Shown: one piece after another, positions 322 to 19,955 of the stretch
Numbering within the stretch: position 1 is the first letter of the stretch
Layout: every line of letters begins with the position of its first letter
NCBI GenBank assembly: GCA_003702545.1
Contig: REGK01000005.1
Coordinates: 1-42,742 of the forward strand
Source of the DNA: Candidatus Nitrosopumilus sp.
GTDB taxonomy: Archaea > Thermoproteota > Nitrososphaeria > Nitrososphaerales > Nitrosopumilaceae
Length of the DNA: 42,742 bases
Reading direction: 5' to 3'
The notes under the pieces: model-generated
What the model saw: the letters and a program-made list of their open reading frames with translations, nothing else
Database searches by the model: none
What the model was told of the DNA's origin: nothing
Made by a program: the position numbers and the translations under genes

Positions 322-600
322 TTGAATAAAACATCATCAAAAGCCCTTGCTGGTTTCAAGTATGTTTACTTGGTTGCATTCTTTGCATTACTGTCAGGAT
401 TTTTCCATCCATTAATCACTAACACTAGTTTTGATAGTGTTGTTGTAGGGGTTTTGGTATTGTTTGTAGGTCTTGCAGGTGGTGTGTTATTGTATAAATC
501 TGCAACTTCTGAGAAAAGAAGAGGAATTTTTCTTGGAGGTGGATTTGCTCTAATGGCAATTTCATTATACTATATCTTCGAACTTAGTGGGCGAGTCTAA
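322..600 (+). CDS. Small membrane protein, hypothetical (3 predicted TM segments)
   Basis: 92 aa ORF with TTG start, hydrophobic segments. Confidence 0.7.
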   Translation: MNKTSSKALAGFKYVYLVAFFALLSGFFHPLITNTSFDSVVVGVLVLFVGLAGGVLLYKSATSEKRRGIFLGGGFALMAISLYYIFELSGRV

Positions 601-2057
601 ACATCAAAGTATAGATAAAATTCATGTGGGTGTGGTCTAATAGAAATCTCACGTTGATCTCTTCTTTCTAATTCAATAATTTTGTCAATTACATCATTGG
701 TGTAAATTGGGTTGAGGAATTTTCTGTCACTTTCCAATTCATCAAGTGCTTCTCCAAGACTCTTTGGAAGAACTCCAATTCCTCTCTTAGTTCTGTCACT
801 TTTTGTCATCTTGAATATGTCGTCACGAACTTCATCTCCAGGATCCATCTTCTTTTTGATTCCATCCATACCAGCTGCAGTAACTGCCGCAAATACTAGA
901 TATGGATTTGATGAAGGATCAGGGGCTCTAAACTCTAATCTCTTTAGATTTGAATACTCTTTTCCTTTGAGGTGTTTTGGAACTCTGACAATTGCCGAAC
1001 GGTTACCAGAACTCCATGCAATATATGCTGGAGCCTCATACCCTGGAACTAATCTGTGGTAGGAGTTTGTAGTTGGATTACAAATTGCTGATAATGCTTT
1101 TGCGTGATTGATAATTCCTCCACAAAAGTATCTTCCAAGTTGGCTTAATTCAATTTCATCATCTGGATCATAAAATGCATTGTCTTTACCTTTCCATAAA
1201 CTAACATTAACATGCATACCTGAACCTGAATCCATTGCAATTGGTTTTGGCATCATTGTTGCAACTTTGCCGTACTTTTGTGCTACATTTCTAATTACAT
1301 ACTTGTAAGACTGTGCTGCATCTGCTGCATTTGTCATATAATCATATTTGATATCAATTTCACATTGTCCTGCTGTTGCTACTTCGTGATGATGGTTATC
1401 ACATAATATTCCAAAATTCTTATTGAGAATATTTACACATTCATTTCTGTATGGTGTGAGAGTATCTGCAGGTGTACTAGGATAGTATCCTTCCTGTAAT
1501 CCCATAGGATATCCATCACCTGATTGATTCCATGGAGCTTCTTTTGATTCAATTGAATAAGATTGACCTTTGTATGGGGTTAGAACATCCCAGTGTACTT
1601 TATCAAAAACAAAAAATTCTACCTCAGGACCCCAAGTACTAAAATCATATCCTTGTGTTTTGATGTACTCTTCAGCCTTTTGTGATATGCCTCTTGGATC
1701 TCTTGATAGTCTACCTCTGCCTTCTCCCCAGTAAACATCACAAAGCAGTCTTGCCGTTTTGTTTTCTGTCATCCATGGAATAATTGCAAATGTATTTGGA
1801 TCAGGTTTTAAGAGTAAATCTGAATCATCAATACTTGTGAATCCGATAATTGATGAACCGTCTAATTTTGGTAACCCATCTCTCATCTGCTCAGGCGTAA
1901 AAGTATTAGCTGAAATTGTAGTGTGATGAAAATGACCAGTTAAACCAGTAAATTGAAGATCAATGAATTGAATTCCCTCATGCTGAATTCTTGAGAAAAC
2001 TTCGTCAGGTGAATATGATACTTGCATTGCTTTTCCGTGACTGACTTTATAGGGCAA
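597..2057 (-). CDS. glnA: Glutamine synthetase type I (paralog 1)
   Basis: 486 aa; 'WGPEVEFFVFD', 'HHHEVATAGQCEI', 'MPKPIAMDSGSGMHVNVSLW', 'NSYHRLVPGYEAP', 'NRSAIVRVP', 'LEFRAPDPSSNPYL'. Confidence 0.97.
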   Translation of the reverse strand: MPYKVSHGKAMQVSYSPDEVFSRIQHEGIQFIDLQFTGLTGHFHHTTISANTFTPEQMRDGLPKLDGSSIIGFTSIDDSDLLLKPDPNTFAIIPWMTENKTARLLCDVYWGEGRGRLSRDPRGISQKAEEYIKTQGYDFSTWGPEVEFFVFDKVHWDVLTPYKGQSYSIESKEAPWNQSGDGYPMGLQEGYYPSTPADTLTPYRNECVNILNKNFGILCDNHHHEVATAGQCEIDIKYDYMTNAADAAQSYKYVIRNVAQKYGKVATMMPKPIAMDSGSGMHVNVSLWKGKDNAFYDPDDEIELSQLGRYFCGGIINHAKALSAICNPTTNSYHRLVPGYEAPAYIAWSSGNRSAIVRVPKHLKGKEYSNLKRLEFRAPDPSSNPYLVFAAVTAAGMDGIKKKMDPGDEVRDDIFKMTKSDRTKRGIGVLPKSLGEALDELESDRKFLNPIYTNDVIDKIIELERRDQREISIRPHPHEFYLYFDV

Positions 2058-12266: not shown

Positions 12267-13144
12267 TACACTATTGCCTTTGCAATTGTATTTGATACAT
12301 CAACTATTGATGTATTACCTGGAATTGTATTTGCACTAATAATTTTTGTAACTCCAGATTTCTTTATTTTCTTTTCAGCATCATTCATCAATAGTGCATG
12401 TGTACATGCAACAAAAACTCTTTTACATTTTTCTTTTTTAAGGAATTTTGTTGCATTAACAATACTTCCACCTGTACTGATCATGTCGTCAACTAGAATT
12501 AGATCACGTCCAATAACATCTGCTTGTTTTGTTTTTATCTGTACTTTGCCTGTTTTTCTGTCTCTTTTCTTTTGTAATGCAATGAATTCTATTCCCATTT
12601 CTTTTGCGAATTCCTTTGCCCTTTCTTTTCCTCCTTGATCGGGTGAAACAACTAATGGGTTTTTCAGGTTCAATTTTTTGAAATATGCTGCCAAATCTGG
12701 AACAGCTGATACATTTTTGGATTTTATTGTGAAATATTTGAGCCCAATCAAACTGTGAATATCCACAACAATTAATTTTGATGCACCCGCGCCTTTGAAC
12801 AATTTTGCAATAACTTTCATGGTAACAATTTCTCCTGGCAAAAATTCTCTGTCCTGTCTTGCATAACCCATGTAGGGAATTACAACAATTACTTCAGATG
12901 AGTTTTCTTTAGCTTTTGAGATTAATGATAATGCTTGAATGAGATTTGAATCAACAGGTGGATAAATTGATTGGACAACAATTGATTTTCTTTTAGATAT
13001 CTTTCCCTTGAGAGTTATCTTGCTTTCACCATCTGGAAAAACTCTCACCTCTGATTTCACTAAATTTCCTTTAACCTTTCTAGCTAACTTCCTTCCTAAA
13101 TCTTCAGAGGCTTTACCGCAAATTACTGATAGTTTACTCAACAA
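12266..13144 (-). CDS. prs: Ribose-phosphate diphosphokinase
   Basis: 292 aa; 'IPYMGYARQDREFLPGE', 'VVSPDQGG', 'DLILVDDMISTGGSI'. Confidence 0.97.
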   Translation of the reverse strand: MLSKLSVICGKASEDLGRKLARKVKGNLVKSEVRVFPDGESKITLKGKISKRKSIVVQSIYPPVDSNLIQALSLISKAKENSSEVIVVIPYMGYARQDREFLPGEIVTMKVIAKLFKGAGASKLIVVDIHSLIGLKYFTIKSKNVSAVPDLAAYFKKLNLKNPLVVSPDQGGKERAKEFAKEMGIEFIALQKKRDRKTGKVQIKTKQADVIGRDLILVDDMISTGGSIVNATKFLKKEKCKRVFVACTHALLMNDAEKKIKKSGVTKIISANTIPGNTSIVDVSNTIAKAIV

Positions 13145-13183
13145 GAAAATGTGAATTAATGGGATTCTTAAGTTTTGAGAAAA

Positions 13184-14923
13184 CTATTCGTCTTCGCCAC
13201 TACCGCGACCAAGATCGCCTATACCATATTCATCAATAACCTTCTTCCTTTCTTCCTTAAGTCTGTCAATTTCTTCTTGTTCCCGTTTTTCATCTCCTTG
13301 GTAAACTGTTCTAATTGGCCATGGAATTCTAATATCGTATCTCTTGAACTCTTCATACATGATAATTCTCATGTCTGTTTTTGTTTTGAATTGTGCACCA
13401 TAATCTCTAACATATACCCACAATGAAAAATCTAATGAAGAATCATTAAACTGATTAAATCTAACTACTGGCTGATTAATATCAATGTGAATATCTTTGT
13501 CACACCCACAACTTGGTTTGTTGTTGTCTAAATATGGACATCTTCTTTGTCTAATCAAATGTCTTCCTTTAGTGTCAACTACTTCTTTCATTGCACGTTT
13601 TCCCACCTTCACAAGAATTGCTGAAACTTGTTTTGGATCATTTAGATAAGAAACACCAACATCAACAATGGCAGGAACCATTTTCACTCCTTGCGTATAA
13701 TTTACAATCTGTGCATTGACTAGTTGCCTTGTAGGAATTATTGCCATGGATTCATTTAATGCATCTCTAACATACGTAACTCTAGGCGTAATCTTATGCA
13801 CATATCCATTGTATCCTGTATCTAGTTTTACACGCTCACCTTCAACGAATATCTTGTCTTTTCGGATGAAAATGTAAGCAAAATAGTTCTGCATTGTTTC
13901 TTGTAATGCTAAACCTAAACCAATTGCCAATCCACCTGTTGCAGTAGCTAATACGATTAAATCTACACCCCACCAAGCAACAACTCCTAAGATTGTTGCA
14001 ATGAAAATACCAATTGGAAGAATTTGTTTTGCTGATCTTGGAATTCCTTCTCTTTTCTTTTTTGCATATCCTGGAGGACGATTACTTGGAATAATTGGTT
14101 CATAACTATGTATTCTCTTCTCTTCTCTCCATACATCAATTGGAAATATCTCATCTGGTTTTGCTCCAGGTCTTAACTTTCTACCTGATTGATTATGACC
14201 AGAAATACAATTTTGATAATATTTTTCATATTTTTGGCGTTCTGATTTCTTCCATTCTTCAAATGGATTATCTACTAATTTTTCATATCCTCCAATAGGA
14301 TTTCCTTTTATCGTTCTGAATTCTTCTAATTTCTTCATTCCTTCTTCTGACTTTAACATTTCTTGGAATTCTTCTTCTGTTAGATCTTCCGGTGTAATTT
14401 TTGGTGGAACCCATTTGTACAATTTATGAAATAGATCATCATCATCCACAAACCCTCGTATTTCAAACCAAGAATCAAAATCCTCTTTTTCCAACCTTGA
14501 TTTATCACGTTTAGTTAGAGCTATGGGGATTAGATGTGATACGGTATAACCTATCACAAGAATATTGAAAGTATTGAGAATTTTTGCAAAAATATCCTGT
14601 GGTGAGATGTCCTCATCACCAATTACTGTAAGATCTTCTTCTAACAAAAGCCCAGTTTGGATATGAACATTAATTGCTGTAATTAGTGCTATGGCAAAAA
14701 AAGGCAGCACCGCTCTTCTTAGAAATCTTGAGAAATGTGGTCTCTTGTAGTAGAATTTTTGAGAACCCACCCAAAATGAAAATTTCCTATATCCAATCAC
14801 TATTCCAATAATTCCAACTATCATAATCATGAATGCAAACTGAAGTGATTCAGAGGACGCTAGAAGCTGTGAAACTGTTTCAAATTCTCCTACTGAAATT
14901 TGAGATAATTCTTCTTCAGCCAT
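13184..14923 (-). CDS. MscS-family mechanosensitive ion channel with large insertion and Cys cluster
   Basis: 579 aa; TM segments, 'LATATGGLAIGLGLALQETMQNYFAYIFI' MscS pore helix region, 'VEGERVKLDTGYNGYVHKITPRVTYVRDALNESMAIIPTRQLVN' beta domain. Confidence 0.9.
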   Translation of the reverse strand: MAEEELSQISVGEFETVSQLLASSESLQFAFMIMIVGIIGIVIGYRKFSFWVGSQKFYYKRPHFSRFLRRAVLPFFAIALITAINVHIQTGLLLEEDLTVIGDEDISPQDIFAKILNTFNILVIGYTVSHLIPIALTKRDKSRLEKEDFDSWFEIRGFVDDDDLFHKLYKWVPPKITPEDLTEEEFQEMLKSEEGMKKLEEFRTIKGNPIGGYEKLVDNPFEEWKKSERQKYEKYYQNCISGHNQSGRKLRPGAKPDEIFPIDVWREEKRIHSYEPIIPSNRPPGYAKKKREGIPRSAKQILPIGIFIATILGVVAWWGVDLIVLATATGGLAIGLGLALQETMQNYFAYIFIRKDKIFVEGERVKLDTGYNGYVHKITPRVTYVRDALNESMAIIPTRQLVNAQIVNYTQGVKMVPAIVDVGVSYLNDPKQVSAILVKVGKRAMKEVVDTKGRHLIRQRRCPYLDNNKPSCGCDKDIHIDINQPVVRFNQFNDSSLDFSLWVYVRDYGAQFKTKTDMRIIMYEEFKRYDIRIPWPIRTVYQGDEKREQEEIDRLKEERKKVIDEYGIGDLGRGSGEDE

Positions 14924-15055
14924 GATTAATCACTATCTTACTCCAATCCGTGTCCTAGAATACAAACGTTAAGGCATATTATCATTTTTTTATCAAAAAA
15001 TTTTATGCGTAGTGAGCCTGTAACCTTTAACAAGGGTTAGCAGACTATTTACTAA

Positions 15056-16402
15056 ATGACCTATCAAGAATCAGTTTGGGGTGATTCTCCTTCGCTAAAA
15101 TCATATACATTATCAAATTTCCGCGATCTTCCACAAATTCAGAATATTTCAGAAGAAAAACAATTTGAAATGGAAGTTGTGGGAAATGTTTTACCATTCA
15201 AGGCAAACAACTATGTTGTTGAACAACTAATTGATTGGGAAAATATTCCAACTGATCCGATGTATGTTCTGACATTTCCTCAGAGAGGGATGTTAAAACC
15301 AGAACATTATTCAAAAATGGAAAATACTCTAAAAAACACTTCTGATAAAAAAGAAATTGCAAATGTTGCAAATGAAATTCGCTTACAACTCAACCCTCAC
15401 CCCGCAGGACAAATGGAACTAAATGTTCCTACTCTAAAAGACGGTACAAAATTGTATGGAATGCAACATAAATACAAAGAGACATGTCTGTTCTTCCCAA
15501 GTCAAAGTCAAACTTGTCATGCATATTGTAGTTTTTGCTTTAGATGGCCACAATTTGTGGGAATGGATGAAATGAAATTTGCAATGCAAGAGGGACAACA
15601 ACTTGTTCAATATGTTTCAGAACATCCTGAAATCACTGATGTTCTTTTCACTGGTGGTGATCCAATGATAATGAAAGCTAAAATGTTTTCCAAATATGTT
15701 GATGCATTAATTGAATCAAAATTACCAAATCTTAAAACCATTAGAATTGGAACAAAAGCTCTTTCCTATTGGCCATACAAGTTTTTGACCGATTCAGATT
15801 CTCAAGAAATGTTACAAGTTTTTCAAAAGATTACTGATAGTGGTCTGCATCTTGCATTTATGGCACACTTTAATCATCTAAACGAATTATCTACTGATGC
15901 TGTAAAATCAGCAATCAAAGAAGTAAGGAGCACTGGTGCTCAAATTAGAACTCAATCTCCAATTTTAGCTCATATCAATGATGATGCAGAAATGTGGGCA
16001 AAAATGTGGACAAAACAGGTTCAACTTGGTTGTATACCATACTACATGTTTGTTGTAAGAGACACTGGTGCTCAACATTACTTTGGTGTGCCTTTAGTCA
16101 GAGCATATGAAATCTTTAGTCAGGCTTACTCAACTGTTAGTGGATTAGGTAGAACCGTTCGTGGACCAAGTATGTCTGCAACACCTGGCAAAGTTCAGGT
16201 TGTAGGAACTACACAAGTCAATGGTGAAAAATTACTAATTTTGAGATTTTTGCAAGGCAGAAACCCAAATTGGGTAAAAGAACCATTTTTTGCAAAATAT
16301 GACGAAAATGCAATTTGGTTAGATGATCTAAAACCTGCATTTGGTGATAAATTCTTCTTTGAAGATGAATTAAACTCTATTAAAGCATCAAAAACCAGTT
16401 AA
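15056..16402 (+). CDS. KamA-family radical SAM aminomutase; substrate unknown, glutamate proposed
   Basis: 448 aa; 'CHAYCSFC' (CxxxCxxC), 'VLFTGGDPMIM', C-terminal region aligns without gaps to lysine 2,3-aminomutase from PYY to the PLP lysine (K379). Confidence 0.9.
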   Translation: MTYQESVWGDSPSLKSYTLSNFRDLPQIQNISEEKQFEMEVVGNVLPFKANNYVVEQLIDWENIPTDPMYVLTFPQRGMLKPEHYSKMENTLKNTSDKKEIANVANEIRLQLNPHPAGQMELNVPTLKDGTKLYGMQHKYKETCLFFPSQSQTCHAYCSFCFRWPQFVGMDEMKFAMQEGQQLVQYVSEHPEITDVLFTGGDPMIMKAKMFSKYVDALIESKLPNLKTIRIGTKALSYWPYKFLTDSDSQEMLQVFQKITDSGLHLAFMAHFNHLNELSTDAVKSAIKEVRSTGAQIRTQSPILAHINDDAEMWAKMWTKQVQLGCIPYYMFVVRDTGAQHYFGVPLVRAYEIFSQAYSTVSGLGRTVRGPSMSATPGKVQVVGTTQVNGEKLLILRFLQGRNPNWVKEPFFAKYDENAIWLDDLKPAFGDKFFFEDELNSIKASKTS

Positions 16403-16490
16403 ATCTGATAATTTTTTTAATTTACCTGACTATCTTGACAAATCTATCTTACTAGATAGCATTAGTAAATTGATTTTCTAAAAATATCAA

Positions 16491-17936
16491 TTGAACGCAG
16501 ATCAAGTACTACAAACTATACAAGATGAAAAAATTTCATTTATTGATTTTTGGTTTGTAGATATTTTTGGTGAATTACATAATGTAGGAATGCCAAGCTA
16601 TGCAATTGATAAAAATAGCTTTGTTAATGGTCTTGAGAAATTAGATGCAAGCTCAATTGTTGGATTCAAATCTGTAAATAATTCTGATATGATTTTAATG
16701 CCAGATCCAAATTCATTTAAAATTCTTCCATCTGATTATGATCCTGGACATAGAACAAATGCCAGAATATTTTGTGACTTGTATGATGGTAGTACAGATG
16801 AGGGTTCAAGATATAACAGAGATTCAAGAGGTATTGCACATAAAGCATCAAAGAAACTAGGTGAATTTGGATTTACTCATACAAATTGGGGACCTGAAAT
16901 AGAATTTTTTGTATTTGATACAATCAATGTATATCCTTCCCCATATGCTGCAACACATTCGTATGGTGGTTCAGGCTATTCAATTGAATCTAAAGAATCA
17001 CCTTGGGCTAAAGGAAATGTAAGTACTGCAATAGACATCAAAGAAGGATATTACCCATCTCAACCTAAAGATACACTTGAAGGATTCAGAAAAGATGTTT
17101 GTGATGATCTATACAATCACTTTGGAATTAAAATTGAAGCTGAACACCATGAAGTAGCAACTTCTGGTCAATGTGAAATTAATCTTGTATATGATGAAAT
17201 GATCCAAATGGCTGATAATGTTATCGGAGTAAAAAATTTAGTTAAAGTTAAAGCTAAACGAAAAAACAAAGTTGCTACATTTATGCCAAAACCAATTTTT
17301 GGTGATAATGCATCAGCAATGCATACTCATCAAAGTCTATGGAATGGAGATTCAAATGCAATGTATGATGAAAATGATAAACTTGCACAAATGAGTCAAA
17401 CTGGAAGGTATTACATTGGTGGAATTTTAAGTCATGCATCAGCATTATGTGCAATTTCAAACCCAACCACCAATTCCTATAAGAGACTCGTTCCAGGTTT
17501 TGAGGCACCTGTCAATGTTTGTTGGGGACTAGCAAACAGATCTGCTGCAATCAGAGTTCCAATGTATAATAGAAATCAAGAAAAAAGTAAACGACTTGAA
17601 TATAGAGTTCCTGATCCCACTGCAAATATCTATCTTCTAGAAGCTGCATTATTACTTGCAGGTTTGGATGGAATCAAAAACAAAATTGATCCAGGTGATC
17701 CAATTGAAGAAAATGTCTACAAACTTTCTGCAGAAAAGAAACGAGAATACAAGATTGGTTCATTACCCGTATCCCTGAAAGGCGCTCTTGATTCTTTGAA
17801 ATCTGATTCACAATTCCTTGAAGATGTTTTCACCAAAGATTTCCTTGATGTTTATTCTGAATTAAAATACAAGGAATATGTTGCATTTGCCCAAACTCCA
17901 ACAGCTTGGGAAGTTTCAATGTACGCTGATGCATAA
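16491..17936 (+). CDS. Glutamine synthetase type I (paralog 2, diverged signature)
   Basis: 481 aa, TTG start; 'WGPEIEFFVFD', 'EHHEVATSGQCEI', 'MPKPIFGDNASAMHTHQSLW', 'NSYKRLVPGFEAP', 'LEYRVPDPTANIYL'. Confidence 0.95.
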   Translation: MNADQVLQTIQDEKISFIDFWFVDIFGELHNVGMPSYAIDKNSFVNGLEKLDASSIVGFKSVNNSDMILMPDPNSFKILPSDYDPGHRTNARIFCDLYDGSTDEGSRYNRDSRGIAHKASKKLGEFGFTHTNWGPEIEFFVFDTINVYPSPYAATHSYGGSGYSIESKESPWAKGNVSTAIDIKEGYYPSQPKDTLEGFRKDVCDDLYNHFGIKIEAEHHEVATSGQCEINLVYDEMIQMADNVIGVKNLVKVKAKRKNKVATFMPKPIFGDNASAMHTHQSLWNGDSNAMYDENDKLAQMSQTGRYYIGGILSHASALCAISNPTTNSYKRLVPGFEAPVNVCWGLANRSAAIRVPMYNRNQEKSKRLEYRVPDPTANIYLLEAALLLAGLDGIKNKIDPGDPIEENVYKLSAEKKREYKIGSLPVSLKGALDSLKSDSQFLEDVFTKDFLDVYSELKYKEYVAFAQTPTAWEVSMYADA

Positions 17937-17991
17937 TTGGTACAAATATCAAATTCTTTTGAAATAGCATAGAACATTTTTAAAATCAATT

Positions 17992-18663
17992 ATGAATTTT
18001 TTTAACATGAAACTAAGCATCTTACTTCTTTTACTAATAATTCCAGGATCAGTAGGTATTGCATATGGACATACTGTAGATGCTGTAGGAGAATATAGAG
18101 TTGAAATTGGATGGATGAATGAACCAGTTGTTTCTGGAGAAACCAATGCAATTGAATTCTATGCTAGTCCCATGAACCCATGTCCTGAAATTCAAGATCC
18201 AATCAAATGTGCTGAATCTCAAGAGTTTGAAAATGGGGTTGAAGGTTTGAAAAAAACAGTAAAGATGCAATTAATTTACAAAGATGAAAGTATAACACTT
18301 CCACTTTCACCTGATCATAATATTCCTGGAAAATACTATGCATTTGTAAATCCAACTGTTTCAGGATTTTATCAAGCAAATGTATTGGGTTCCATTAATG
18401 AAACTCCAATTAGCTTATCTATGCATCCTCCAAAAGTGGGAGAACGTGCCTACATTGAGTTCCCTGAACCTTCTGATATTACTGTGCAACAAATAATTGA
18501 TGGACATACTGCGTTGATTGAAGATATTGGTGATCTAAAGGATTCTGTAGATAATCTAGAAGAAACTAAACAAGAAATGGATATGGGTTATGTAGGGATT
18601 GGTGTTGGAATTATTGGAATAGCAATTGCTGTTGTTGCTCTAGCAAAATCTAAAAAGAATTAA
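17992..18663 (+). CDS. Secreted/membrane-anchored hypothetical protein (signal peptide and C-terminal TM)
   Basis: 223 aa; N-terminal signal 'KLSILLLLLIIPGSVGIAYGH', C-terminal TM 'GYVGIGVGIIGIAIAVVALAKSKKN'. Confidence 0.8.
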   Translation: MNFFNMKLSILLLLLIIPGSVGIAYGHTVDAVGEYRVEIGWMNEPVVSGETNAIEFYASPMNPCPEIQDPIKCAESQEFENGVEGLKKTVKMQLIYKDESITLPLSPDHNIPGKYYAFVNPTVSGFYQANVLGSINETPISLSMHPPKVGERAYIEFPEPSDITVQQIIDGHTALIEDIGDLKDSVDNLEETKQEMDMGYVGIGVGIIGIAIAVVALAKSKKN

Positions 18664-19955
18664 TTAGAATTCATAAAATCTTTTCTTCTTCTCAAAAATA
18701 AATACAAAACAGCTCCAATTGCAATAATAGCTAATCCTACAAGAATTATTTCTGTCTCAAATTGTAATGCCATGTAAACAGTTGTTCCAAACCCAAATAA
18801 TGGCAAAACTGGGAATTTTCCAATATTAACTGGAACTCTAAACGGTCTTTCTAAAACTGGTTCAGTATATCTAAGAACAATTACTGCCAAGTTAATTGCT
18901 GCAAATGTGATTACTACTGCAAAGACCACAATATTTGCAATGATTACTATGTCTCCAACAAAAGCAAATGCAATGGATGTAACCAAAATTCCAATAACTG
19001 CAATCCAAGGTGTCTTTGTTTTAGGATGAACTCTTCCTAAAAATTCAGGGAGAGTTCTGCTTTTTGCCATTCCATATAGAATTCTAGCTCCTGCAACAAG
19101 TGTAATCAAAACAGTACTTGCTGTAGCAAAAAGTGCAATTAGTGAAAGTGTTACACTACCATTCATTCCTATTGCTCCATGAGCAACGTCAGCTAAAGGA
19201 GCAGAAGATACTGCTAAATCTTGCCAATTCAGAATCCGAATTGATGCTAAAGAAACTAGAATGTAAATTACACCTGTTATCACTATAGACAAAACTATTG
19301 CTTTGGGAATTGTTTTCTGAGGCCTTCTTACTTCCTCAGCAACATTTGCCATATCTTCAAATCCAATAAATGCAAAGAAAATCAATACAAATGCAAGAAT
19401 GATTCCAGTCATTCCAGTTGGTGCTTCAAAATAGTCAATTGTCTCAACTGGTTCCATTGAAAATCCGAGAAAAATAATTAGAACTAGTCCTGCAGCAGTA
19501 ACTAATGCAAAAATGGTATTTGCCCATGCTGATTCTCTTATTCCAATAAAATTTACAACTGATAAAATAACAATTAGAATTACTGCTCCAATTTCAATTG
19601 GTAAATCAACAAATTGAGTTAGATAACCACCAAATCCTAAAGCAACTGTAGCTGCAACAATTATGGATGTAATTGCAGTAAGCCATCCTATAATAAATCC
19701 AAAAAATCTATTCTTGAAAGCATTTTTTACAAAAGTATATTCTGCAGCGGCTTTTGGATATAATGCAGAAAGTTCTGCATAACTTAATCCTGCAAACATT
19801 GCAACTATTCCTCCTAACAAAAAAGATATCCACATTGAATTTCCTGCAAACCCTGCAGCTTCTCCAATTAAGACATAGATTCCTGCACCAAGAATTAACC
19901 CGACACCGTACATAGTAAGGTGAAAAAGTCCCATATGACGATGTAATTCAGACAT
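18660..19955 (-). CDS. APC-family amino acid permease
   Basis: 431 aa; 'MYGVGLILGAGIYVLIGEAAG', 'FFAFIGFEDMANVAEEVRRPQKTIPKAI'. Confidence 0.95.
   Translation of the reverse strand: MSELHRHMGLFHLTMYGVGLILGAGIYVLIGEAAGFAGNSMWISFLLGGIVAMFAGLSYAELSALYPKAAAEYTFVKNAFKNRFFGFIIGWLTAITSIIVAATVALGFGGYLTQFVDLPIEIGAVILIVILSVVNFIGIRESAWANTIFALVTAAGLVLIIFLGFSMEPVETIDYFEAPTGMTGIILAFVLIFFAFIGFEDMANVAEEVRRPQKTIPKAIVLSIVITGVIYILVSLASIRILNWQDLAVSSAPLADVAHGAIGMNGSVTLSLIALFATASTVLITLVAGARILYGMAKSRTLPEFLGRVHPKTKTPWIAVIGILVTSIAFAFVGDIVIIANIVVFAVVITFAAINLAVIVLRYTEPVLERPFRVPVNIGKFPVLPLFGFGTTVYMALQFETEIILVGLAIIAIGAVLYLFLRRRKDFMNSN

Follow-up and report, generated by a model that had tools for sequence, protein, structure and literature searches.

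Which gene makes the beta-glutamate of marine ammonia-oxidising archaea? Heal et al. report beta-glutamic acid as the most abundant identified metabolite of Nitrosopumilus maritimus SCM1, at ~730 mM (PMC8269262). In the open literature, to which our search was confined (paywalled papers and preprints lay outside it), we found no gene proposed for the beta-glutamate of these archaea, nothing relevant that links an aminomutase to Nitrosopumilus or to ammonia-oxidising archaea, and no mention of Nmar_1771. The 42,742-nucleotide stretch of Candidatus Nitrosopumilus sp. analysed here (contig REGK01000005.1, hereafter the window) carries a KamA-like aminomutase gene between genes for an MscS-type mechanosensitive channel and a second glutamine synthetase (GS), which we call GS2. 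This locus is a real, conserved and functionally coherent module, and at present it is the leading candidate for the making and management of beta-glutamate in these archaea. The initial annotation, made from the letters of the window, had proposed an osmolyte module of this kind and was right in outline, its interpretation being partly supported. The route that it had regarded as undescribed in ammonia-oxidising archaea concerns a solute that is itself already published.

Layout, distribution and co-inheritance of the locus

The elements of the locus, with the housekeeping GS of the window for contrast, are:

13184..14923, minus strand: MscS-type mechanosensitive channel, long form, 579 amino acids; PF00924 and PF21082 above their cut-offs; candidate solute release valve
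14924..15055, no strand: divergent MscS/KamA intergenic region, 132 bp; holds the conserved promoter-like block AACCTTTAACAAGGG
15056..16402, plus strand: KamA-like radical S-adenosylmethionine (SAM), pyridoxal phosphate (PLP)-dependent aminomutase of the IdnL4 type, 448 amino acids; proposed glutamate 2,3-aminomutase
16403..16490, plus strand: KamA/GS2 gap, 88 bp; holds the conserved GS2 upstream element
16491..17936, plus strand: GS2, type I GS paralogue, 481 amino acids, TTG start; TIGR00653 above its cut-off
597..2057, minus strand: GS1, housekeeping GS

The three open reading frames lie exactly where the initial annotation had placed them, with MscS divergent from KamA and GS2 in tandem behind it. 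A PF00120 search of the whole assembly bears out its claim of a second GS, returning exactly two genes, both in the window (609-1703, minus strand, and 16818-17924, plus strand); the assembly is 93.6% complete, which leaves some room for a further one.

We surveyed 400 Nitrososphaeria genomes, 221 of which belong to the family of the window (f1, Nitrosopumilaceae by its named loci). KamA matches were found in 160 of the 400, and all the strong ones (154/221) fall within Nitrosopumilaceae, the six genomes outside it giving weak, distant matches only (E-values of 1e-14 to 2e-27). The named KamA loci are nearly all from Nitrosopumilus, Marine Group I, Nitrosarchaeum, Nitrosopelagicus or Cenarchaeum. 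In nearly all loci long enough to judge, MscS was divergent from KamA, and GS2 usually came next. The arrangement holds in many species and many genera, well outside the source genome, and is not due to chance; the initial annotation had named a lack of such conservation as grounds for its refutation. The genome that we take to be that of N. maritimus SCM1 (G044) carries KamA (96%), GS2 (98%) and MscS (91%) in the same order; since the solute of that strain is published, the solute is known and the locus is its most plausible source.

KamA and GS2 are also inherited together. Among family genomes of good quality (completeness of 90% or more, contamination of 5% or less), 75 have both genes, 25 have KamA only, two have GS2 only and 29 have neither (Fisher p 5e-12, not corrected for kinship); the two with GS2 only are drafts. 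The same split recurs within genera, with seven genomes carrying both genes and 12 neither in one genus (g8), six and six in another (g4), and none in the intermediate categories. In the single-contig genomes G042, G060 and G123, GS2 accompanies KamA at a distance of hundreds of kb. GS2 is thus nearly confined to KamA-bearing genomes, even where the two are unlinked, while many KamA lineages are without GS2: the small genomes of genus g9, whose complete representative is presumably Nitrosopelagicus brevis, have KamA and no GS2, one probable contaminant excepted. GS1, by comparison, was present in 60 of the 61 family genomes sampled, those lacking KamA included. In the near-complete genome G031 the GS2 beside KamA (contig 1, 17603-18538) is stop-broken and accompanied by fragments, which suggests a recent loss.

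Two upstream elements are conserved. The near-palindromic block AACCTTTAACAAGGG (15022-15036) lies 34 nt before the KamA start, and an alignment of 27 Nitrosopumilaceae loci shows it conserved; in most other genera it is recognisable 33-34 nt before KamA with up to five mismatches, and at no more than one mismatch it has a single site in the source genome and a single site in N. maritimus. A core promoter giving a leaderless transcript is one possible role, an operator another. GS2 has an upstream element of its own, acctgactatcttgacaaatctatcttacta...attagtaa, at about 16426-16471, with the inverted repeat TTACTA...TAGTAA, which is kept in an alignment of 16 linked and four unlinked GS2 copies. 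Since this element travels with the unlinked copies, GS2 is probably separately regulated and not merely carried along. An Rfam scan of 13000-18800 gave one sub-threshold long non-coding RNA as its sole match.

The aminomutase and its probable substrate

To judge by its sequence, the KamA-like protein is a genuine but outlying member of the KamA family. The best model is TIGR00238 (KamA family), with 130.9 bits, below the cut-off of 199.2, and the closest bacterial relatives likewise fall under that cut-off; TIGR03820 (lysine 2,3-aminomutase) gives 107.5 bits for a cut-off of 525.4. The cysteines of the CxxxCxxC cluster motif (Cys154, Cys158 and Cys161), Arg163, Lys379 and Arg335 are invariant in 124 archaeal and nine bacterial homologues, so that cluster motif, PLP lysine and carboxylate-binding arginine are found in all 133. 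Aligned with lysine 2,3-aminomutase (PDB 2a5h), Arg163 corresponds to Arg134 and Lys379 to Lys337, and Arg335 stands in the place of Asp293 in 124/124 archaeal and 9/9 bacterial sequences. In the lysine enzyme we take Asp293 to bind the epsilon-amino group of the substrate, Arg134 its carboxylate and Lys337 the PLP. Arg335 should consequently be repulsive to lysine and favourable to a carboxylate in the substrate side chain; lysine as a substrate was rejected on the Asp293-to-Arg change. KamA is probably a glutamate 2,3-aminomutase that feeds the beta-glutamate pool.

The closest full-length non-archaeal homologues that we found are encoded on bacterial plasmids (45-52% identity) and form one group with archaeal KamA, distant from lysine 2,3-aminomutase. 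The homologue of Streptomyces sp. NBC_00334 (45.6% identity over 93%) lies between type I polyketide synthase genes, directly before an aspartate-aminotransferase-type PLP enzyme and near an AMP-binding protein whose best structures are 5jjq (6e-185), which we take to be IdnL1 of incednine, and named beta-aminoacyl-acyl carrier protein synthetases. As predicted from its genes, this cluster matches the incednine layout of IdnL4, IdnL3 and IdnL1. IdnL4 is a radical SAM enzyme predicted to be a glutamate 2,3-aminomutase, IdnL3 a beta-glutamate decarboxylase and IdnL1 an adenylation enzyme; feeding experiments identify beta-glutamate as an intermediate of incednine, and disruption of idnL4 supports its role in the 3-aminobutyrate pathway (PMC11284099). 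Another KamA homologue, on a Rhodococcus plasmid (L147, 8925-18707), is found with SidA-type monooxygenase, ATP-grasp, carrier protein and AMP-binding genes in what appears to be a small-molecule cluster.

The channel and the second glutamine synthetase

The channel carries both expected domains, with 29.6 bits for the PF00924 beta-domain (cut-off 20.2) and 32.8 bits for the C-terminal PF21082 (cut-off 21). In a search of 32 genomes for the long form, six of 11 KamA-bearing and none of 21 KamA-lacking family members had it, and two KamA-bearing genomes without it (G025 and G028) have a short canonical MscS beside KamA, behind a DUF432 gene. When long and short forms are counted together, 33 of 38 KamA loci have an MscS gene within 7 kb, and 16 of the 38 a Na+/H+ exchanger; 54 control stretches of ~860 kb in all (57 minus three that contained KamA) held no MscS and four exchangers. 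In genus g2 the long MscS beside KamA is replaced by a DUF432 gene and an unrelated short MscS, in the following pairs:

L246, 10889-12489: DUF432 and short MscS
L247, 10048-11661: DUF432 and short MscS
L248, 8113-9725: DUF432 and short MscS
L249, 6994-8627: DUF432 and short MscS
L250, 6554-8193: DUF432 and short MscS

That another clade has an MscS of a different class in this very position argues more strongly than any other single finding for channel and enzyme acting jointly. We consider it rather likely, if less surely so than the assignment of KamA, that MscS is the release valve of beta-glutamate; DUF432 may be an MscS partner. In G155 (L252) a comparable DUF432/MscS pair is found upstream of KamA, a few kb away.

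Other transporters are found in the same neighbourhoods. Na+/H+ exchangers of several kinds lie near KamA (L243, L246, L247, L248, L251, L252, L253, L255, L261, L274, L275, L277, L281 and L283), some of them close to where GS2 would be. An APC-family amino acid permease is encoded downstream in the window (18660-19955, minus strand) and is likewise found close to KamA in many Nitrosopumilus; solute uptake or scavenging is a possible role.

GS2 is a type I GlnA by TIGR00653 (515.4 bits, cut-off 429.15). In the tree the GS2 sequences group in a separate, well-supported clade with a long stem; their nearest neighbour is an extra GS of a large-genome family (f3), which we take to be the soil Nitrososphaeraceae. 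Of the residues checked for metal, ATP, ammonia and glutamate, Glu129, Glu131, Glu212, Glu220, Glu357, Arg321, Arg339, Arg344, Arg355, Arg359, Asp50, Ser53 and Tyr179 are all invariant. In the NGSGMH loop, Gly265 and Gly267 (Salmonella numbering) are both Ala in 84/84 GS2 sequences and both retained in GS1; Gly265 of the Salmonella enzyme presumably contacts the substrate amino group. In a wider alignment, other archaeal GS have a single one of the two changes, so that the pair only hints at altered amino-acid recognition, and the idea that the changes are unique to GS2 was dropped. A third GS type with the motif NGSAMH is present in some family members (L219, L234, L235 and L236) and is sister to the extra GS of f3.

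As to the role of GS2, we put at about even the chance that it serves as an L-glutamine synthetase, dedicated to salt or of high flux, which meets the large demand of osmolyte synthesis for glutamate and nitrogen, the role of KamA being unchanged. All the classical catalytic residues checked are invariant in GS2, many KamA-bearing genomes do without it, N. maritimus retains beta-glutamate as such (PMC8269262), and a study of Halobacillus halophilus links a GS isogene, glnA2, to osmoadaptation (PMC2412884). The joint fixation of Gly265Ala and Gly267Ala near the substrate amino group, together with the long stem, speaks against such a role, if weakly, as each change occurs singly elsewhere. That GS2 is instead a beta-glutamine synthetase we propose only tentatively; we found no report in the literature of beta-glutamine in these archaea.

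Proposed mechanism, alternatives and known systems

Taking protein families, conservation, co-inheritance and pocket residues together, we infer the substrate of KamA, the cargo of MscS and the role of GS2 as follows. KamA, with its [4Fe-4S] cluster, S-adenosylmethionine and PLP, would turn L-glutamate into beta-glutamate by shifting its amino group from C2 to C3. The product, which proteins do not contain, would build up together with K+ and be the main compatible solute. On hypo-osmotic shock the divergent MscS would open and let the solute out. In most Nitrosopumilus, GS2 would add an accessory amidation, either of beta-glutamate to beta-glutamine or as a salt-dedicated supply of L-glutamine. 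The core of this scheme, a glutamate-type aminomutase with an MscS valve, was already in the initial annotation and draws support from the conservation of the locus, the anti-lysine pocket and the reported beta-glutamate.

Three other accounts have to be weighed against it. The three genes could be neighbours by ancestry alone, without joint function, since much of the surrounding gene order is common to close relatives. GS2, however, follows KamA even where unlinked, and a different MscS class lies beside KamA in another clade; shared synteny by itself would account for neither, and we regard this account as very improbable. Radical SAM aminomutases differ in substrate, and the bacterial members of this group sit in differing biosynthetic clusters (Rhodococcus, Streptomyces cellulosae), so the product of KamA might be another beta-amino acid, whether beta-lysine, beta-glutamine formed directly out of glutamine, or some small metabolite that is secreted. 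We regard this as unlikely, given Arg335 in place of the lysine-binding Asp, the absence of a recognised beta-lysine acetyltransferase beside KamA in the neighbourhoods inspected, and the beta-glutamate that the cells contain (PMC8269262). Finally, beta-glutamate could arise by the route proposed in Methanocaldococcus, through hydroxyglutaryl-CoA (coenzyme A), glutaconyl-CoA and ammonia addition, with KamA doing something else. Nuclear magnetic resonance (NMR) excluded a glutamate aminomutase in methanogens, where this CoA-ester route was proposed instead (PMC1224877), and the archaeal precedent therefore covers the solute and not the enzyme; the parallel with methanogens drawn in the initial annotation holds for the GS and fails for the aminomutase. 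The family-restricted distribution of KamA, its pairing with MscS and its relationship to IdnL4 nevertheless fit beta-glutamate directly, and on these grounds, no search for the MJ0400/MJ0800 genes having been made, we give the methanogen-type route little credence.

Besides the methanogen result, several points count against, or limit the case for, KamA as a glutamate 2,3-aminomutase in an osmolyte module. It scores only 84 bits against TIGR04368 (glutamate 2,3-aminomutase; cut-off 650), and membership in this curated clostridial family was rejected on that score. The Clostridioides difficile enzyme has Lys at the substrate side-chain site where KamA has Arg, so that Arg335 would be a parallel solution. 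An AlphaFold model of KamA (mean predicted local distance difference test score 64, predicted template modelling score 0.56), with its active-site loops unresolved, was too poor for a test of the pocket. Five KamA loci (L243, L244, L254, L269 and L271) are without MscS. KamA is also present, with neither GS2 nor MscS nearby, in the genome (G003) of what we take to be the wastewater species Nitrosotenuis cloacae, and may for that reason not be strictly marine, or salinity not the whole story; a salinity proxy, the ratio of acidic to basic residues over ~20-kb stretches of KamA-bearing and KamA-lacking genomes, was too noisy to give a signal. Lastly, the activity of IdnL4 was not observed in vitro (PMC11284099).

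The reading of KamA as the beta-glutamate enzyme names a specific gene for a solute that was published without one, and it would add a second aminomutase lineage, marked by a conserved Arg, and a route unlike that proposed in methanogens. It predicts that most Nitrosopumilaceae make beta-glutamate and that the rest of the class, f3 included, does not. Few cells of the subsurface ocean are as abundant as ammonia-oxidising archaea, and the gene, if the reading is true, would be a genetic marker for an oceanic pool of organic nitrogen. A more ambitious version, which we consider doubtful, has an IdnL4-type aminomutase, of a kind also present in bacterial antibiotic clusters, adapted to osmolyte synthesis and linked on at least two occasions to MscS valves, GS2 having evolved into a true beta-glutamine synthetase that balances anionic beta-glutamate against zwitterionic beta-glutamine and divides Nitrosopumilus from GS2-less lineages such as Nitrosopelagicus.

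Among known systems, ectoine biosynthesis, which Widderich and colleagues are said to have described in N. maritimus in 2016, resembles the present locus as compatible-solute synthesis in the same genus. It concerns another solute, and ectoine synthase, which the N. maritimus genome encodes, was not found in the source assembly; of the two osmolyte routes, that through KamA may be the more widespread. The Clostridioides glutamate 2,3-aminomutase (TIGR04368) shares with KamA the proposed reaction and the radical SAM/PLP chemistry and belongs to a separate lineage (84 bits versus 650, Arg versus Lys). A known salt-regulated KamA-family aminomutase is, like KamA as we read it, dedicated to a beta-amino-acid osmolyte, but it uses lysine and has an acetyltransferase as partner (PMC1224877), whereas KamA is without the lysine-binding Asp and is accompanied by MscS and GS2. 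The GS of Methanohalophilus portucalensis amidates beta-glutamate (PMC1224877) and is thus, likened by its described activity alone, another GS tied to this solute, although no aminomutase is known as the source of beta-glutamate in that organism. Closest of all is IdnL4, compared here through the full-length homologue in the incednine-like cluster of Streptomyces sp. NBC_00334 and not through the IdnL4 sequence itself: this copy shares with KamA the Fe-S motif, the PLP lysine and the Arg at the Asp293 site, yet IdnL4 works with a beta-glutamate decarboxylase in the synthesis of an antibiotic, whereas KamA would supply an osmolyte pool.

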